Part shown: positions 41,490 to 55,115 of the stretch, one piece after another
Layout: each line of letters begins with the position of its first letter
Position numbering within the stretch: the first letter of the stretch is position 1
Source: Gracilimonas mengyeensis
GTDB lineage: Bacteria; Bacteroidota; Rhodothermia; Balneolales; Balneolaceae
Length of the DNA stretch: 64,000 bases
Assembly (NCBI RefSeq): GCF_900182705.1
Contig: NZ_FXTP01000004.1
Span: 1-64,000, forward strand
Direction: 5' to 3'
Position numbers and translations under genes: made by a program
Notes under the pieces: model-generated
The model's database searches: none
Told to the model about the DNA's origin: nothing
Seen by the model: the letters and a program-made list of their open reading frames with translations, nothing else

Positions 41490-42575
41490 TTACAGCTGTT
41501 TCCCAATCTCAATAATATCCCCCAGAACACCGGCAGCCGTTACATTACGGCCCGCTCCGGGACCTTGAATGGTAATGGGGGAATCTGCATATCTCTTGGT
41601 ATATATTTGCAAAAGGTTGTCGGTTCCTTTTAGGCCAGCCAGTGGTGAATCAGCTTTAACTTCTTCCACGCCTACTTTAATTCCATCAGGACTGAAAGTG
41701 CCGGTGTAACGTAACTTGCGGTTATTTACCATAGCCTGGGCATTTCTGCTTTTCCAATGGCCATCATAGTCAGGTAAATGTTTGAGGAACTCATCTGTAG
41801 AAAGTGTAATGAGTTTTTCAGGCACCAGGGTATCTACTCTTATATCATCGCGCTCAAAAGTGTATCCGCTGGTTCGTGCAAGTATCAAGAATTTCCGTGC
41901 CACGTCTTCTCCTGAAAGGTCATCCCTGGGATCGGGTTCTGAATAGCCCTGTTGCTTGGCTTTATGTACGGCCTCACTGAAAGAAACTCCGTTTTGAAGT
42001 TGGGTAAACAAATAAGTCATAGTTCCGGAAGCAACGCCGGTGATTTTTGTGATCTCATCCCCGGTATTAAGCAAAGTATTCAGGGTGCTCACAATCGGCA
42101 AACCAGCTCCAACGGCTGTCTCGTAATGGTAATGGGTGCCGTTCTGAGTTGCTTTCAACAGTTTGTTGAAATACTCCTGTTCAAAAGTGTTGGCCCGTTT
42201 ACTGGGAGTCGCAATATGTATGCCATTTGTCAATAGTTGGTAGTAGGCACGTGCTACGTTAGCACTGCCCGTAGCGTCCACAAACACCGGATTTTCATAC
42301 TTTTGGTCAATTAGGCGTGCGGGAATGGTATCCCAGTTAGTTTTTTCTCCATCCTTTTTCAGCATTTTCGAATCAAGCATATCGATATCGGGATTCCACA
42401 ATGTGAAGGAGCTATTGCATACTCCGATAATTTCCAGTTCAAAAGCACTGGAATTCAATTGGTTAATTTGGCGAACTAAAGTGCCGCCTACTGCTCCGAT
42501 ACCCGCAATGAAAACGGAGAGTTTCTTCTTTTGGGAAATGGGCAGTATATGAGGTGCTGAGCTTGTTTTTTTCAA
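41490..42575 (-). CDS. hom: homoserine dehydrogenase
   Basis: 361-residue enzyme reducing aspartate semialdehyde to homoserine, the branch point to methionine and threonine. The N-terminal NAD(P) motif is GIGAVGGTLV (about residues 25-34). The catalytic domain has ATPSKRAN (about 134-141), GAGLPIVSTL, GVASGTMTYLFTQL, and PDPRDDLSGEDVARK with the active-site acids and Lys. The C-terminal GPGAGRNVTAAGVLGDI closes the nucleotide fold. Neither aspartokinase nor ACT domain is present, so it is the single-domain form most similar to the C-terminal half of ThrA-type enzymes. It is the last gene of the methionine operon, 8 nt after metX, and feeds MetX directly. Confidence 0.94.
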   Translation of the reverse strand: MKKTSSAPHILPISQKKKLSVFIAGIGAVGGTLVRQINQLNSSAFELEIIGVCNSSFTLWNPDIDMLDSKMLKKDGEKTNWDTIPARLIDQKYENPVFVDATGSANVARAYYQLLTNGIHIATPSKRANTFEQEYFNKLLKATQNGTHYHYETAVGAGLPIVSTLNTLLNTGDEITKITGVASGTMTYLFTQLQNGVSFSEAVHKAKQQGYSEPDPRDDLSGEDVARKFLILARTSGYTFERDDIRVDTLVPEKLITLSTDEFLKHLPDYDGHWKSRNAQAMVNNRKLRYTGTFSPDGIKVGVEEVKADSPLAGLKGTDNLLQIYTKRYADSPITIQGPGAGRNVTAAGVLGDIIEIGKQL

Positions 42576-42583
42576 ACCGTAAT

Positions 42584-43627
42584 TCAGGATTTTATTTTAG
42601 TGAGTGAGTGGTAAAAGTTATTGAGTTCAACATTTAGTTGATCAAATTCGATCAGAAAAGCATCGTGGCCGTAAGGCGATTCAAGCTCGGCCAACCGGCT
42701 GTTGGGAATGAGCTGGGCGAGTTCTTGTTGCTCTTCAATGGGATAAAGCTTGTCACTGGTAAAGCCGATCACCAATACGGGAATATCCAGCTTTCTCAGT
42801 ATTTCTTTAAACGTGCCCCGCCCGCGTGCTACATCATGAAAGTCCATAGCCTTGGATAGCGTTACGTAGGTGTTGGCGTCAAAACGTTCTACCAGTTTTT
42901 GGCCTTGATAATTTAAGTAGGATTCTACCTGGTAGACATCTTTTTGAGGGTGAACATCGCGCCCAAACTTCTGTTCGTAATTCTCAGGCGTGCGGTAGGT
43001 AATCATAGCCATGGCACGGGCGGCTGCCAATCCTTTTTTAGGGGGATTTTTTTCATCATAAAACCCATCATTCCAATGTGCATCAGCATAAATAGCCATG
43101 CGTTGTGCTTCGCTGATGCCAATGGCCCAGGCCGTGTGTGCCTTCCCCATGCCCATCACGCAGGCTCGTTCAATACGGTCGTCCATTACGGCAAATTCCA
43201 GGGCTGTCATGCCACCTAATGAACCACCAACCATGAGTTCTATTCCATTGATTTCCAGATCATCTAGAAGCTGTTGATTAAATCGCACGATATCACGGAT
43301 GGTAATATTCGGAAAATCAGCCTGGTAGGGCTTGCCGGTTTCTGGGTTAATAGAGGTGGGACCTGTACTTCCGTAACAACTTCCGAGAATATTGGGGCAC
43401 AGAATAAAATGTCTGTCGGGGTCAAAGGGTTTGTCTTTGCCGAACAAACCGCCAAACCATTCATCAGCTTCGGTATTGCCTGTTAATGCATGGCATATAA
43501 ATACCACATTGTCCCTGTTTTCATTAAGAGAGCCCCAGCTTTGGTAAGCAATTTGTGGCTTTTCCAGAACAAATCCACTCTCCGTGGTAAAAGGAGTATC
43601 AAAAGTAAGTACTTCAGGTTTCGCCAT
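42584..43627 (-). CDS. metX: homoserine O-acetyltransferase
   Basis: 347-residue alpha/beta-hydrolase-fold enzyme that acetylates homoserine. The catalytic triad is visible: nucleophile Ser136 in GGSLGGM, Asp292 in GFTSDKLYP, and His321 in YGHDAF. The conserved GSCYGSTGPTS segment (about residues 82-92) is present. The length and order match MetX from other bacteria; acetyl rather than succinyl specificity is assumed from family membership and from the partner MetY. It sits between the osmC-like gene (56 nt, with a hairpin) and hom. Confidence 0.95.
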   Translation of the reverse strand: MAKPEVLTFDTPFTTESGFVLEKPQIAYQSWGSLNENRDNVVFICHALTGNTEADEWFGGLFGKDKPFDPDRHFILCPNILGSCYGSTGPTSINPETGKPYQADFPNITIRDIVRFNQQLLDDLEINGIELMVGGSLGGMTALEFAVMDDRIERACVMGMGKAHTAWAIGISEAQRMAIYADAHWNDGFYDEKNPPKKGLAAARAMAMITYRTPENYEQKFGRDVHPQKDVYQVESYLNYQGQKLVERFDANTYVTLSKAMDFHDVARGRGTFKEILRKLDIPVLVIGFTSDKLYPIEEQQELAQLIPNSRLAELESPYGHDAFLIEFDQLNVELNNFYHSLTKIKS

Positions 43628-43683: not shown

Positions 43684-44217
43684 TTAATTCACATAAGTCA
43701 ATTCCCCTTGCACCGGTACAGGATTTTGTATGATATCCAGTACGGGACAGTTCTTCAGGGAAATGTCTTTTAGTTGTTCAAGTTTCTTTGGATCGTCTTC
43801 GTCGGTTTCAATAACCGTTTCGTATTTCACATTGGTAAAACCGGGCCGGGTATTATCCAGGTTGAAAAAACCATGGAGATCCAGATCACCGGTTACCTCT
43901 ACCTTTACGGATTTCAGTTTAATACCGAGTTGACCGGCATGTGCTTTAATCACTATTTCCTGGCAGGCTGCAAAAGCACCTAACACGTATTCCACGGGGT
44001 TCGGTCCTTCATTCTGTCCGCCAAGACTTTCGGGTTCATCTGAGATAAATTCAAAGTTCCGGGCCTTAATGCTTGAGCGGAAGCCTTCTGTCAATTCAGA
44101 AGTAGCCGTAAAGCTCACATCTGCATTATCGGCTTTTTCTTTCACTGCTGAAATCACGCCGCTAAGCGTTTCATTTAATTTGTCATCAATGTGTGTTTGA
44201 GTTGTTACTGTAGACAT
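43684..44217 (-). CDS. OsmC/Ohr family protein
   Basis: 177-residue OsmC-fold protein. The two reactive cysteines of the family are present in FAACQEIVIKAHA (about residues 83-95) and KNCPVLDII (about 155-163), so thiol-dependent peroxidase activity toward organic hydroperoxides is plausible. A central LGIKLKSVKVEVTGDLD strand supports the fold. It lies inside the methionine operon between metY and metX, an unusual placement that may link sulfur-amino-acid synthesis to oxidative or sulfide stress. A terminator-like hairpin separates it from metY, so its level may be partly uncoupled. Confidence 0.88.
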   Translation of the reverse strand: MSTVTTQTHIDDKLNETLSGVISAVKEKADNADVSFTATSELTEGFRSSIKARNFEFISDEPESLGGQNEGPNPVEYVLGAFAACQEIVIKAHAGQLGIKLKSVKVEVTGDLDLHGFFNLDNTRPGFTNVKYETVIETDEDDPKKLEQLKDISLKNCPVLDIIQNPVPVQGELTYVN

Positions 44218-44364: not shown

Positions 44365-46226
<1,862 letters not shown>

Positions 46227-46441: not shown

Positions 46442-46483
46442 AAAAAAAGCCTCTTCCGGGATGAATCCGAAAGAGGCTTTTTT
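46442..46483 (-). terminator. riboswitch expression-platform terminator
   Basis: Strong hairpin (GCCTCTTTC...GAAGAGGC on the minus strand, arms around 46471-46478 and 46448-46455) followed by seven T, starting about 20 nt after the SAM-I aptamer. It is the OFF-state terminator of the riboswitch; a partly symmetrical A/T flank would let it work in both directions. Confidence 0.9.
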
Positions 46484-46499
46484 AATGAAGACCTTGTCG

Positions 46500-46627
46500 A
46501 ACTCATCTTTTCCATTCCGCCAAATGCAGAACAGACAGGATGTAGCACCTTTTCTCCCAATATTGCTATCGGGCGACGGTTGCCAAGGCTTCACAGGACC
46601 TGATCCCTCCACCTTTCTCAATGAGAA
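46500..46627 (-). promoter_or_regulatory. SAM-I riboswitch (S box)
   Basis: On the minus strand the aptamer core follows the SAM-I consensus: P1 CTCAT (46625-46621), then GAGAAAGGTGGAGGGAT, GGTCCTGTGAAGCC, TTGGCAACC, a variable P3 arm, AGGTGCTACATCCTG, and closing AAAGATGAG with P1 partner ATGAG (46506-46502). SAM binding should favour the terminator at 46442-46483 and shut off the methionine operon to its left. Recognised from consensus by eye; all key conserved blocks are present. Confidence 0.95.
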
Positions 46628-46663: not shown

Positions 46664-46698
46664 CAAAAAAGCCCTTCTGAGTTACATTCAAAAGGGCT
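46664..46698 (-). terminator. attenuator terminator behind the Cys/Met leader peptide
   Basis: On the minus strand AGCCCTT (46698-46692), a 15-nt loop and AAGGGCT (46676-46670) form a stem followed by six to seven T. The sequence AAGGGCT also occurs just upstream, overlapping the leader peptide stop (46733-46727), and could pair with the 5' arm instead, forming an antiterminator. Confidence 0.8.
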
Positions 46699-46731
46699 GT
46701 GTTTGAAAATCGTTATCGTATACCTTAGCCC

Positions 46732-46803
46732 TTATGCCTGCGCAGTGCACATACACATCATCGTTGTACAAGAGCGGGTGGTATTTTGTTGGATTAAATT
46801 CAT
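46732..46803 (-). CDS. Cys/Met-rich leader peptide of the methionine operon
   Basis: A 23-codon frame, ATG at 46803 and TAA at 46734-46732, too short for ordinary gene finding. Codons 11-20 read SCTTMMCMCT: three Cys, two adjacent Met plus a third, and three Thr within ten codons, exactly the products of the pathways controlled downstream. GGAG lies just upstream of the ATG with short spacing. The stop overlaps AAGGGCT, which duplicates the 3' arm of the following terminator. A ribosome stalled for lack of charged Cys or Met tRNA would leave AAGGGCT free to form the antiterminator; one reaching the stop would mask it and allow termination. The peptide itself probably has no other job. Confidence 0.75.
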   Translation of the reverse strand: MNLIQQNTTRSCTTMMCMCTAQA

Positions 46804-46982
46804 GGCTCCAATGTTAAGGGGAGATTTTGGAAGGTGCAAATTATTTTTTGAGAATTGCAAACTATTCCTAAAATAGTCGTAATATTTCTTGATTAAACCA
46901 CCTGAGAGGTAGTTCGTCCCAAGCTTTTCCGGGCGACGAGATCAGTTGTGTAGATCGCAACAAGAATAAATACATCACATCT

Positions 46983-48392
46983 ATGAAAACAAAAATATGC
47001 TGGATGACAGTATGCCTGCTTGTGGCTTCATCCGGTATTACTGCACAAGTAAGAACCATTCCTAAAGTGGAGAAAAGTTCGATACAGAAGTTCATTGAAA
47101 AAACTTCTAAGCTAAAACACCTTGCAAAGAACAAGCAAAAAGCTGAACAGGAAGACCTGATTACCGGCCTCGATATCATTTACTATGATATGGGCAGCTG
47201 GTTTTATGGTACGCGGGTAGATTTCAACTATGAATCGGGTTTGCTGACCCAACAAATAGCTGAATCCAGGGTTGATACTGAATGGATAGTTGAGTCTAAG
47301 ATGACAAACACTTATACCAATGGCCGTTTAACTCAGGAGTTGTATGAAGAGTTGAATTATATGAGCGGCGAGCTTGAGCCTTATGAGCGATATTCTTATT
47401 CCTACAACAATGAGGTACTGGCTGAGGTGGTATATGAAGAGTGGGTGGATGGTAAATGGGTTATTGGTTATAAAGATACTTTCACTATTACCAATGGACA
47501 GATCTCGGAAGGCATCATTTACTATTGGGTAGATGATACGGAAGACTGGGAAGCGATGGAGCGTTACTCCATGGAAGAAACTAATGACACTCTGATTTAT
47601 ACCACTCAAGTACGATGGGAAACTGAAGAATGGGAAAATTATGAGCGTGATATGTATCCCGGTTTAACCGTACAGGGACTCCTGGATTATGTATTCAGTT
47701 TTAATGCTACTCTCCATTTGTCAGCTATATTGATCTACAATCAATTTCCGGATTATATCTACCAGGAATGGGATGGTGAAAAATGGTTAAATATAGAGCA
47801 GCAGTATAGCACCTTATACCATAGTTCAAACCAGTTGTTAGAAACCAAATATATCAATACCGTTACCTGGGAAGAAGGAGAACCGGTTCCAAGTACAAGT
47901 TTGGTGCATTATTACAATGAGAAAGAGAATCCTGACTCTACTGTATTAAATATCAATAATGGCTGGGGAGAAAATCAGGAATGGTCGGTTTACATGAGGG
48001 AAAACTACACCTATTCCCAAGAAGGATTGATGGATGAAATAAATGTATCCTTTGGTAGCCTGATAGCCTACCAGTATAAATTTGAGTGGAATGGTGTTTC
48101 TGTAAGCAATGAAAATCCTGAGAAACCTACTACTTTTAAGCTGAATAACGCTTATCCCAATCCATTTAATCCTACCACCAATATTAGCTATTCTGTAGCA
48201 CAGCCCGGATACGTTAAATTGATGGTGTACGACATGCTGGGACGTTATATAACTACCTTGGTTAATGGTATGCAGTCATCGGGTGACCACACGGTACAGT
48301 TTAATGCAGCCGGACTTTCCAGTGGCATGTATATTGTACGGATGGAAGCTCCGGGCTACATCAAAACCCAAAAAATGACATTGCTTAAGTAA
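46983..48392 (+). CDS. secreted protein with type IX sorting domain
   Basis: 469-residue extracellular or surface protein. The signal peptide covers about residues 1-22 (VASSGITAQ). The central part is Tyr/Trp/Glu-rich with repeated motifs such as YSYNNEVLAEVVYEEWVDGKW and related EEWE units (shortened here: EEWVDGKW, ETEEWENYE), of unknown function. The C-terminal ~80 residues form a type A T9SS sorting domain: NAYPNPFNPTTNISYS, a VYDMLGR turn, LSSGMYIVRM and terminal KMTLLK. After export this tail should be cleaved by the T9SS sortase. It is a single gene, divergent from the methionine leader, with its own terminator. Confidence 0.85.
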   Translation: MKTKICWMTVCLLVASSGITAQVRTIPKVEKSSIQKFIEKTSKLKHLAKNKQKAEQEDLITGLDIIYYDMGSWFYGTRVDFNYESGLLTQQIAESRVDTEWIVESKMTNTYTNGRLTQELYEELNYMSGELEPYERYSYSYNNEVLAEVVYEEWVDGKWVIGYKDTFTITNGQISEGIIYYWVDDTEDWEAMERYSMEETNDTLIYTTQVRWETEEWENYERDMYPGLTVQGLLDYVFSFNATLHLSAILIYNQFPDYIYQEWDGEKWLNIEQQYSTLYHSSNQLLETKYINTVTWEEGEPVPSTSLVHYYNEKENPDSTVLNINNGWGENQEWSVYMRENYTYSQEGLMDEINVSFGSLIAYQYKFEWNGVSVSNENPEKPTTFKLNNAYPNPFNPTTNISYSVAQPGYVKLMVYDMLGRYITTLVNGMQSSGDHTVQFNAAGLSSGMYIVRMEAPGYIKTQKMTLLK

Positions 48393-54922: not shown

Positions 54923-55115
54923 GACTTCCCTCCCTGCAAAATCAGCAAGCTGATTTTCCGGTCCCTCCATGAGGGACACAGGGTTCTTGGCTTTCGATAA
55001 ATTGCTGGTATATGTTTACCTGTTTTATTAGGCAAGAAAACCTAACTCTCTTTGGAGAGAGACAGATTTCAGCTTGCTGCAAATCAGAGACAGGGCCGTG
55101 GGGATGAGGGTAAGT
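54923..55115. repeat. dispersed multi-hairpin repeat, copy B
   Basis: Second copy of the element at 20798-21000, same orientation. Hairpins AAAATCAGC-AA-GCTGATTTT (54938-54957) and GTCCCTC-CAT-GAGGGAC (54961-54977) match copy A; the loop change GA to AA keeps the stem. GGCAAGAA and the CTCTCT/GAGAGAG block (55031-55065) are shared at similar spacing, while the sequence between is diverged. Confidence 0.75.

Follow-up and report, generated by a model that had tools for sequence, protein, structure and literature searches.

Anatomy of the metY control region

The window analysed here is the stretch of 64,000 nucleotides at the start of contig NZ_FXTP01000004.1 of Gracilimonas mengyeensis, and on its minus strand a predicted promoter, a 23-codon open reading frame (ORF), an intrinsic terminator (terminator 1), a SAM-I riboswitch, a further terminator (terminator 2) and an operon follow one another in that order (Table 1). 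A sequence-only reading of this DNA had described the frame at 46803-46732 (minus), with SCTTMMCMCT as its codons 11-20, and re-translation reproduced it exactly. The intrinsic terminator that it placed behind the frame was found by the terminator scan, with the hairpin AGCCCTTTTGAATGTAACTCAGAAGGGCT at 46698-46670 and a T tract after it, and the heptamer AAGGGCT that it saw overlapping the leader stop is present at 46733-46727. It also saw the downstream operon, and is corrected there in one respect: a gene for a CoA-binding protein comes first, and metY is next. It overlooked the SAM-I riboswitch and terminator 2; the leader is half of the control region.

Table 1. Features of the metY control region and operon in window coordinates, and the second leader of the same genome
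Feature	Position	Strand	Basis
Predicted sigma70-like promoter (TTGCAC, 17 nt, TAACAT)	46811..46839	-	Pattern scan; -10 box end to leader ATG, 7 nt
Leader peptide ORF, MNLIQQNTTRSCTTMMCMCTAQA*; Cys/Met control codons 12 and 15-19	46732..46803	-	Translation, conservation
Arm 1 (protector, GCUCUUGU); could pair with arm 2 when ribosome-free	46768..46775	-	Pairing energies, folding
Arm 2 (antiterminator strand AAGGGCU); overlaps leader stop codon	46727..46733	-	Read in sequence; pairing, folding
Arm 3 (AGCCCUU); 5' strand of terminator 1	46692..46698	-	Terminator scan, pairing
Terminator 1: 11 pairs, then U tract; -15.5 kcal/mol	46664..46698	-	Terminator scan
SAM-I riboswitch aptamer (RF00162)	46500..46627	-	Rfam model: 63 bits against gathering score of 44.4
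Terminator 2: 17 pairs; presumed expression platform of SAM riboswitch	46443..46483	-	Terminator scan
CoA-binding protein (PF13380); first gene past control region	45735..46226	-	Family scan
metY, O-acetylhomoserine sulfhydrylase family (TIGR01326)	44365..45681	-	684 bits against cut-off of 495
OsmC-like protein (PF02566)	43684..44217	-	Family scan
metX, homoserine O-acetyltransferase family	42584..43627	-	Above NF001209 cut-off, below TIGR01392 cut-off
Homoserine dehydrogenase (PF00742)	41490..42575	-	Family scan; no NCBIfam model above cut-off
Second Cys/Met leader attenuator, MKTQNYIQTTTAATEQAMNCCCMCMCMMCNTPTVVDVMC, and terminator	G000 contig C15, L258:1550-1669, outside window		Same genome

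The nearest large ORF upstream is divergent (46983-48392, plus strand). No T-box was matched in the window, where the Rfam cut-offs were reached by SAM and whalefall-1 alone; the whalefall-1 RNA match lies at 55042-55096 (plus strand) and scores 43.3 bits against a cut-off of 37. A second SAM match in the same genome (L001, contig C1:311204) has no leader, and the product encoded behind it reads as a MetH-type methyltransferase half.

Conservation of the leader

The conservation of the leader was judged by a simple rule, which calls for an ORF of 8-60 amino acids with at least 2 Cys and at least 4 Cys/Met within 8 residues, lying in the 350 nt upstream of the aptamer. We searched 92 genomes of Balneolaceae for the SAM family and fetched 104 matches with their flanks, one of which (L104) scored below the cut-off, and these were sorted by whether a MetY relative of more than 45% identity lies downstream (81 yes, 23 no). 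Such a leader is present at 74 of the 81 metY-linked loci, the conserved Cys/Met codon run in relatives that the sequence-only reading had set as a test, and at none of the 23 SAM loci that no MetY follows. By comparison, the same rule picks out 8 of 364 tiles of 350 nt from the window (both strands, with the actual leader left in) and 12 of 1620 shuffled upstream regions. The Cys/Met leader upstream of the metY SAM riboswitch is therefore real and not a product of chance. Eight of the 23 loci without MetY were read, and seven of the products resemble the MetH-type methyltransferase half; the eighth, at L022, is a more divergent MetY-like enzyme. The seven metY loci that lack a leader are L047 and six loci of a single smaller-genome genus (g19), where the aptamer sits close behind the end of an apparent longer upstream gene.

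Across the leaders the Cys/Met run is kept while the order of the residues and the length of the peptide drift. The last 16 residues hold on average 4.1 Cys and 3.1 Met, so that Cys and Met make up 45% of them against 5% of the remainder, figures that are a description and not a test because the leader rule itself selects dense ORFs; at least 2 Cys together with at least 2 Met occur there in 67 of 71 leaders. Within seven genera, pairwise comparison shows Cys retained in 1234 of 1705 cases (327 of the 1234 with the other codon, TGT versus TGC) and Met in 1011 of 1331, and the identity at positions with neither residue is 2137 of 4596. Substitutions fall somewhat more often on the third codon position (2819, against 2378 and 2250), a bias so mild that the evidence for the frame rests on the Cys/Met run rather than on general coding bias. 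Five leaders typed against NCBIfam had no match. Threonine, which the sequence-only reading had counted among the control residues, is rejected in that role: although it ranks third in frequency among the last 16 residues, it stands mostly in the tail past the Cys/Met run.

Terminator 1 and the antiterminator

A terminator behind the leader was called by script at 71 of the 74 loci; at the remaining three, inspection by eye reveals a hairpin whose U tract is interrupted or out of place. Over these 71 loci the duplex between the arm at the leader stop and the 5' strand of the terminator averages -13.3 kcal/mol when the two are matched, -10.5 when the arm is paired with the terminators of other genera and -7.0 when the arm is shuffled; the matched duplex is stronger than the locus's own swap mean in 59 of the 71 and significant at p<=0.05 in 61. 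The arm begins between -10 and +6 nt of the leader stop, a closeness that is built in, as the arm was searched only around the stop. Measured from the last Cys/Met codon, it starts at a median of 9 nt (range 0-17), with 65 of the 71 within 4-16 nt. When the arms of 62 loci are anchored on one pair, the distance has a standard deviation of 3.4 nt to the last Cys/Met codon versus 4.7 nt to the stop, and between genera the figures are 4.0 and 5.1 nt. The difference is modest, and the spacing fits a stalled ribosome that leaves the arm free.

Covariation was counted on an alignment (A2) of 28 of the 29 sequences from genera g11, g12, g13, g14 and g17, with L018 left out, its arm lying before the stop; a larger alignment (A1; 69 of the 71 sequences, two repeats dropped) was not used for pair counts, since in it MAFFT places the arm one base out of register from group to group. 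On the 28 sequences the antiterminator is 95.1% paired, compared with at most 62.1% when slid, and its covariation score of 0.153 (0.100 in shuffles) was reached by none of 500 shuffles. The variable pair is A-U in 19 sequences, G-C in 5, G-U in 2, U-A in 1 and another combination in 1. The number of pairs with two-sided change in these sequences (one) is not above that of shuffles, 402 of 500 of which reach it, and terminator 1 covaries too. The antiterminator covariation is thus present but narrow, and of the competing duplication with compensatory change that the sequence-only reading anticipated, the stronger matched pairing is borne out, with two-sided change confined mainly to one pair.

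A protector strand within the ORF could also hold the antiterminator arm. In the genus of the window its pairing scores -10.6, compared with -5.9 for shuffled and -7.7 for swapped partners; in the largest genus (g11) it scores -8.4, equal to the swap mean of -8.4. Across 71 loci it is better than the shuffle mean in 63 and better than the swap mean in 53. In simulated folding of the nascent RNA, a ribosome placed at codon 12 or at codons 15-19 lets the antiterminator hairpin form before the 3' strand of the terminator is made (one pair shorter at codon 12), while a ribosome at the leader stop lets terminator 1 form. With no ribosome in the simulation, arm 2 is sequestered by the upstream strand, and the result is again terminator 1. 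Equilibrium folding of the full-length RNA favours terminator 1 even when a ribosome occupies codon 17 or 19, so that the switch must be kinetic and depend on the order of synthesis.

Predicted promoters

A sigma70-like pattern lies within 60 nt upstream of 60 of the 74 leaders, and occurs in 23 of 2132 tiles of the window and 50 of 1480 shuffled sequences. The comparison is post hoc, as the pattern was written after the alignments had been viewed, and the shuffled sequences came from the 60 nt ahead of the longest version of each ORF. In 45 of these 60 loci, 6-8 nt separate the end of the -10 box from the start codon, and in 13 the distance is 20-27 nt (genus g3 shows the longer distance). 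For the 45 short-distance loci, that of the window among them, we predict a leaderless start at or near the leader ATG. A promoter of the Bacteroidota type (TTG-N17..21-TAnnTTTG) was also tried and was dropped, since most leaders lack it: it occurs at 4 of 74 leaders, 2 of 798 tiles and 9 of 1480 shuffles.

A second leader at the sulfite-reductase operon

A leader device of the same kind, an addition to the sequence-only reading, stands ahead of a sulfite-reduction operon elsewhere in the genome. The pattern ATGTGYATGTGY led to it, yet that pattern is not enriched (3 matches in the genome, one of them in another frame, against 5 for the reversed control), and the case for the second leader rests not on the pattern but on its relatives. 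The leader starts 280 nt upstream of a sulfurtransferase-like gene, which is followed by genes for sulfite reductase, uroporphyrinogen methyltransferase, cysH and siroheme synthase. Sulfite reductase of this type is present in 20 of 89 genomes of the family searched, and upstream regions of up to about 3 kb each could be taken from 19 of them, the twentieth contig beginning at the gene; in all 19 a Cys/Met leader is followed by a terminator to which an arm is matched at p<=0.05, judged by 100 shuffles. In five of the 19 the loose rule marks further ORFs, most of them without a terminator.

No SAM match was found at the sulfite-reductase operon of the window's genome, and the leader device seems to act alone on sulfide supply at sulfite reductase and together with SAM on sulfide use at metY. 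The genome encodes cysM above the cut-off, cysE-like and cystathionine beta-synthase-like genes below the main cut-offs, and five strong PF01053 enzymes, MetY included. Homocysteine might hence serve as a source of cysteine as well, which would explain the Cys codons ahead of metY.

Spread and order of leader and aptamer

MetY was found in 160 of the 195 genomes of a search across the class. Four other families of the order contribute 20 genomes with MetY, and the leader precedes the aptamer in 16 of the 19 upstream regions fetched from them; a terminator was called for 9 of these 16 leaders, 6 of them with p<=0.05. At L191, L194, L196 and L197 the end of the leader and the aptamer are separated by about 20 nt that hold no terminator, and the start and end of the ORF are complementary by eye. 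The rest of the class contributes 72 genomes with MetY; loci from 41 of them were picked by hand and fetched, 40 with a SAM match. The leader rule picks out three ORFs upstream and one downstream of the aptamer among these 40, none alike, and nothing in the other 36.

A further search, of named genomes, is limited to its 80 closest MetY loci, of which 55 (L130-L184) lie outside the order. Loci L105-L129 partly duplicate other genomes of the order (for example L105/G024 and L111/G011), and the two sets are therefore not independent. The 55 loci divide into 4 with leader then SAM, 25 with SAM then leader, 5 with a leader only, 7 with SAM only and 14 with neither. The four in leader-then-SAM order come from MAGs labelled Bacteroidetes or BMS3Abin03. 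The 25 in the reversed order include 17 from Pontibacter and 5 from Rufibacter; the leader start codon lies 9 nt past the aptamer end in 22 of the 25, and most of the ORFs finish in runs of Cys codons. This arrangement suggests that in the reversed-order loci the riboswitch may gate translation of the leader. This Pontibacter-type set holds 26 leaders at its 25 loci; a terminator was called for 5 of them, of which 2 reach p<=0.05, and good U tracts are absent by eye. We take intrinsic termination to be mostly absent there, and that control passes through Rho or translation instead is a guess.

Leaders also occur near metY where no SAM family was matched. Two Calditrichia/Calditrichaeota loci carry leaders and terminators with no SAM match. 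In one of the two, L131 from a Calditrichia MAG, two leader-terminator units stand in tandem before metY at about 1980-2470, the arm of the second being not significant (p=0.23). In Anaerophaga (L147 and L149) a short Thr- and Met-rich ORF with TTTTGMMMGRM lies upstream of metY with no SAM match; that of L147 was missed in a shorter scan.

Proposed mechanism and alternatives

We consider it very probable that the metY-metX-homoserine dehydrogenase operon is preceded by a leader-peptide transcription attenuator responsive to cysteinyl- and methionyl-tRNA, which stands in series with the SAM-I riboswitch. The basis of this model is the anatomy, the conservation, the pairing with some covariation, and the spacing; the ribosome-controlled Cys/Met attenuation proposed in the sequence-only reading gains support from the conserved leader and from the matched pairing of arm and terminator. 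From these elements we infer how translation, stalling, termination, SAM response and AND logic would play out at the metY locus. The transcript would begin close to the leader AUG. A shortage of Cys or Met tRNA would stall the ribosome on the Cys/Met codon run, leaving the arm at the stop codon free to pair with the 5' strand of terminator 1, and the polymerase would read on. When Cys and Met are plentiful, the ribosome would reach the stop and cover arm 2, allowing terminator 1 to form, and with no ribosome arm 2 would be held by the upstream strand within the ORF with the same outcome, an effect that is clear in the window's genus. A polymerase that has passed terminator 1 would then meet the SAM riboswitch and terminator 2, where high SAM should stop it, so that full expression should need a shortage of Cys or Met AND low SAM. 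A point against the model is that, under such logic, low SAM on its own would leave the operon silent, a behaviour without obvious benefit.

Some of the same features would be expected if the mini-ORF were a working small Cys/Met-rich (metal- or thiol-binding) peptide with the hairpin as its terminator, the metY operon having its own promoter before the SAM riboswitch. A short gene with a terminator right behind it is ordinary, Cys/Met runs resemble metal ligands, and the gap at 46663-46628 could house a promoter, for although a simple scan lists none there, such scans miss many. We nevertheless regard this as very unlikely: only the Cys/Met run is conserved while order and length drift, and none of the five leaders typed against NCBIfam was matched. 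Moreover, the arm fits its own terminator better than those of others, its distance to the last Cys/Met codon is somewhat less variable than its distance to the stop, and the ORF tracks the metY and sulfite-reductase operons and is missing from the other 23 SAM loci.

Conservation of Cys/Met content without conservation of peptide order, and the exchange of TGT and TGC at kept Cys codons (327 of 1234 kept pairs), also make it very unlikely that the leader senses general translation or acts as an arrest peptide instead of reading the supply of Cys and Met. Leader attenuators for antibiotics and for general translation do exist, but the genes served here belong to sulfur assimilation and Met synthesis. 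There is finally the reading in which the ORF arose by chance, control lies with the SAM riboswitch alone and the hairpin before it terminates a transcript from further upstream. This would agree with the rest of the class, where 36 of 40 loci have a SAM riboswitch before metY with no leader by the rule and the four rule matches are unlike one another; within Balneolaceae, however, the contrast between 74 of 81 loci and 12 of 1620 shuffles, the matching of arms to their own terminators and the opposite direction of the large upstream ORF in the window (46983-48392, plus strand) render it extremely improbable.

A wider reading of the attenuator model, which we put forward tentatively and regard as possible though somewhat doubtful, is that a Cys/Met-tRNA attenuator regulon built on (often leaderless) mini-ORFs spans sulfite reduction and homocysteine synthesis, and that it became linked to the metY SAM riboswitch on at least two occasions, with either element first. 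The leader would precede the aptamer in Balneolales and the four MAG loci, and the aptamer would precede the leader in Pontibacter and Rufibacter, the riboswitch there gating translation of the leader peptide and not of an enzyme.

Relation to known systems

Attenuators of the trp, his and thr type combine a short ORF carrying control codons with mutually exclusive antiterminator and terminator hairpins, an arm of which is covered by the ribosome at the stop. The metY leader resembles them in its control-codon ORF, its exclusive hairpins and an arm that a ribosome at the stop would cover, and differs in having two sulfur amino acids as control residues, a Balneolales host, a predicted leaderless start and a riboswitch downstream. 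A leaderless start, predicted from promoters for many of the metY leaders, would be shared with the polycysteine leaderless short ORFs that Canestrari reportedly described in mycobacteria in 2020. The Mg2+ leader of mgtA with its leader peptide mgtL unites a peptide and an RNA sensor in one 5' region, as the metY region does with a different signal and layout.

The uORFC-8-2 motif upstream of cysS in Rhodobacterales is a predicted Cys-codon uORF with an intrinsic terminator (PMC8632094); the excerpt of that report concerns two tandem Cys codons before a tRNA-synthetase gene of alpha-proteobacteria and mentions no riboswitch, in contrast to the Cys/Met run of the metY leader. Actinobacteria have Cys-run leaders upstream of sulfur genes, for which the excerpted source describes conserved terminator hairpins as absent (PMC1262725). 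The likeness lies in a Cys-rich short ORF before sulfur genes, and on the strength of that excerpt we do not file the metY leader as a member, given its terminator with a matching antiterminator and its admixture of Met codons. Serial terminators on a methionine gene are known from the tandem SAM-I and AdoCbl riboswitches of Bacillus clausii metE, which according to the excerpt act through two independent terminators (PMC2258182); at metY, one of the two sensors would be the ribosome reading the leader peptide. A SAM-II riboswitch has been combined with a terminator in a study whose abstract mentions no leader peptide (PMC9373788). According to the excerpt of a 2010 survey, leader-peptide systems had, ermC apart, been known from Proteobacteria and Actinobacteria alone until that survey described a case in Firmicutes (PMC2965389), and in Bacteroidota such systems are merely hinted at in the excerpts of two reports (PMC9723704, PMC7366714). 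Among the matches listed in a search of the full-text open-access literature, there was no description of the metY device. What would be new in it is the dual Cys/Met control, its serial coupling to a SAM-I riboswitch and its shared use at sulfite reduction; it would otherwise work like a classical attenuator.

Because of its reversed order, Pontibacter offers a direct test of a riboswitch-gated leader peptide. If the model for the window is true, one operon would read the same pathway at two serial levels, charged Cys and Met tRNA through the ribosome and SAM through the aptamer, and because the sulfite-reductase operon has the same kind of leader and no riboswitch, this could explain how the supply of sulfide and its use are coordinated.
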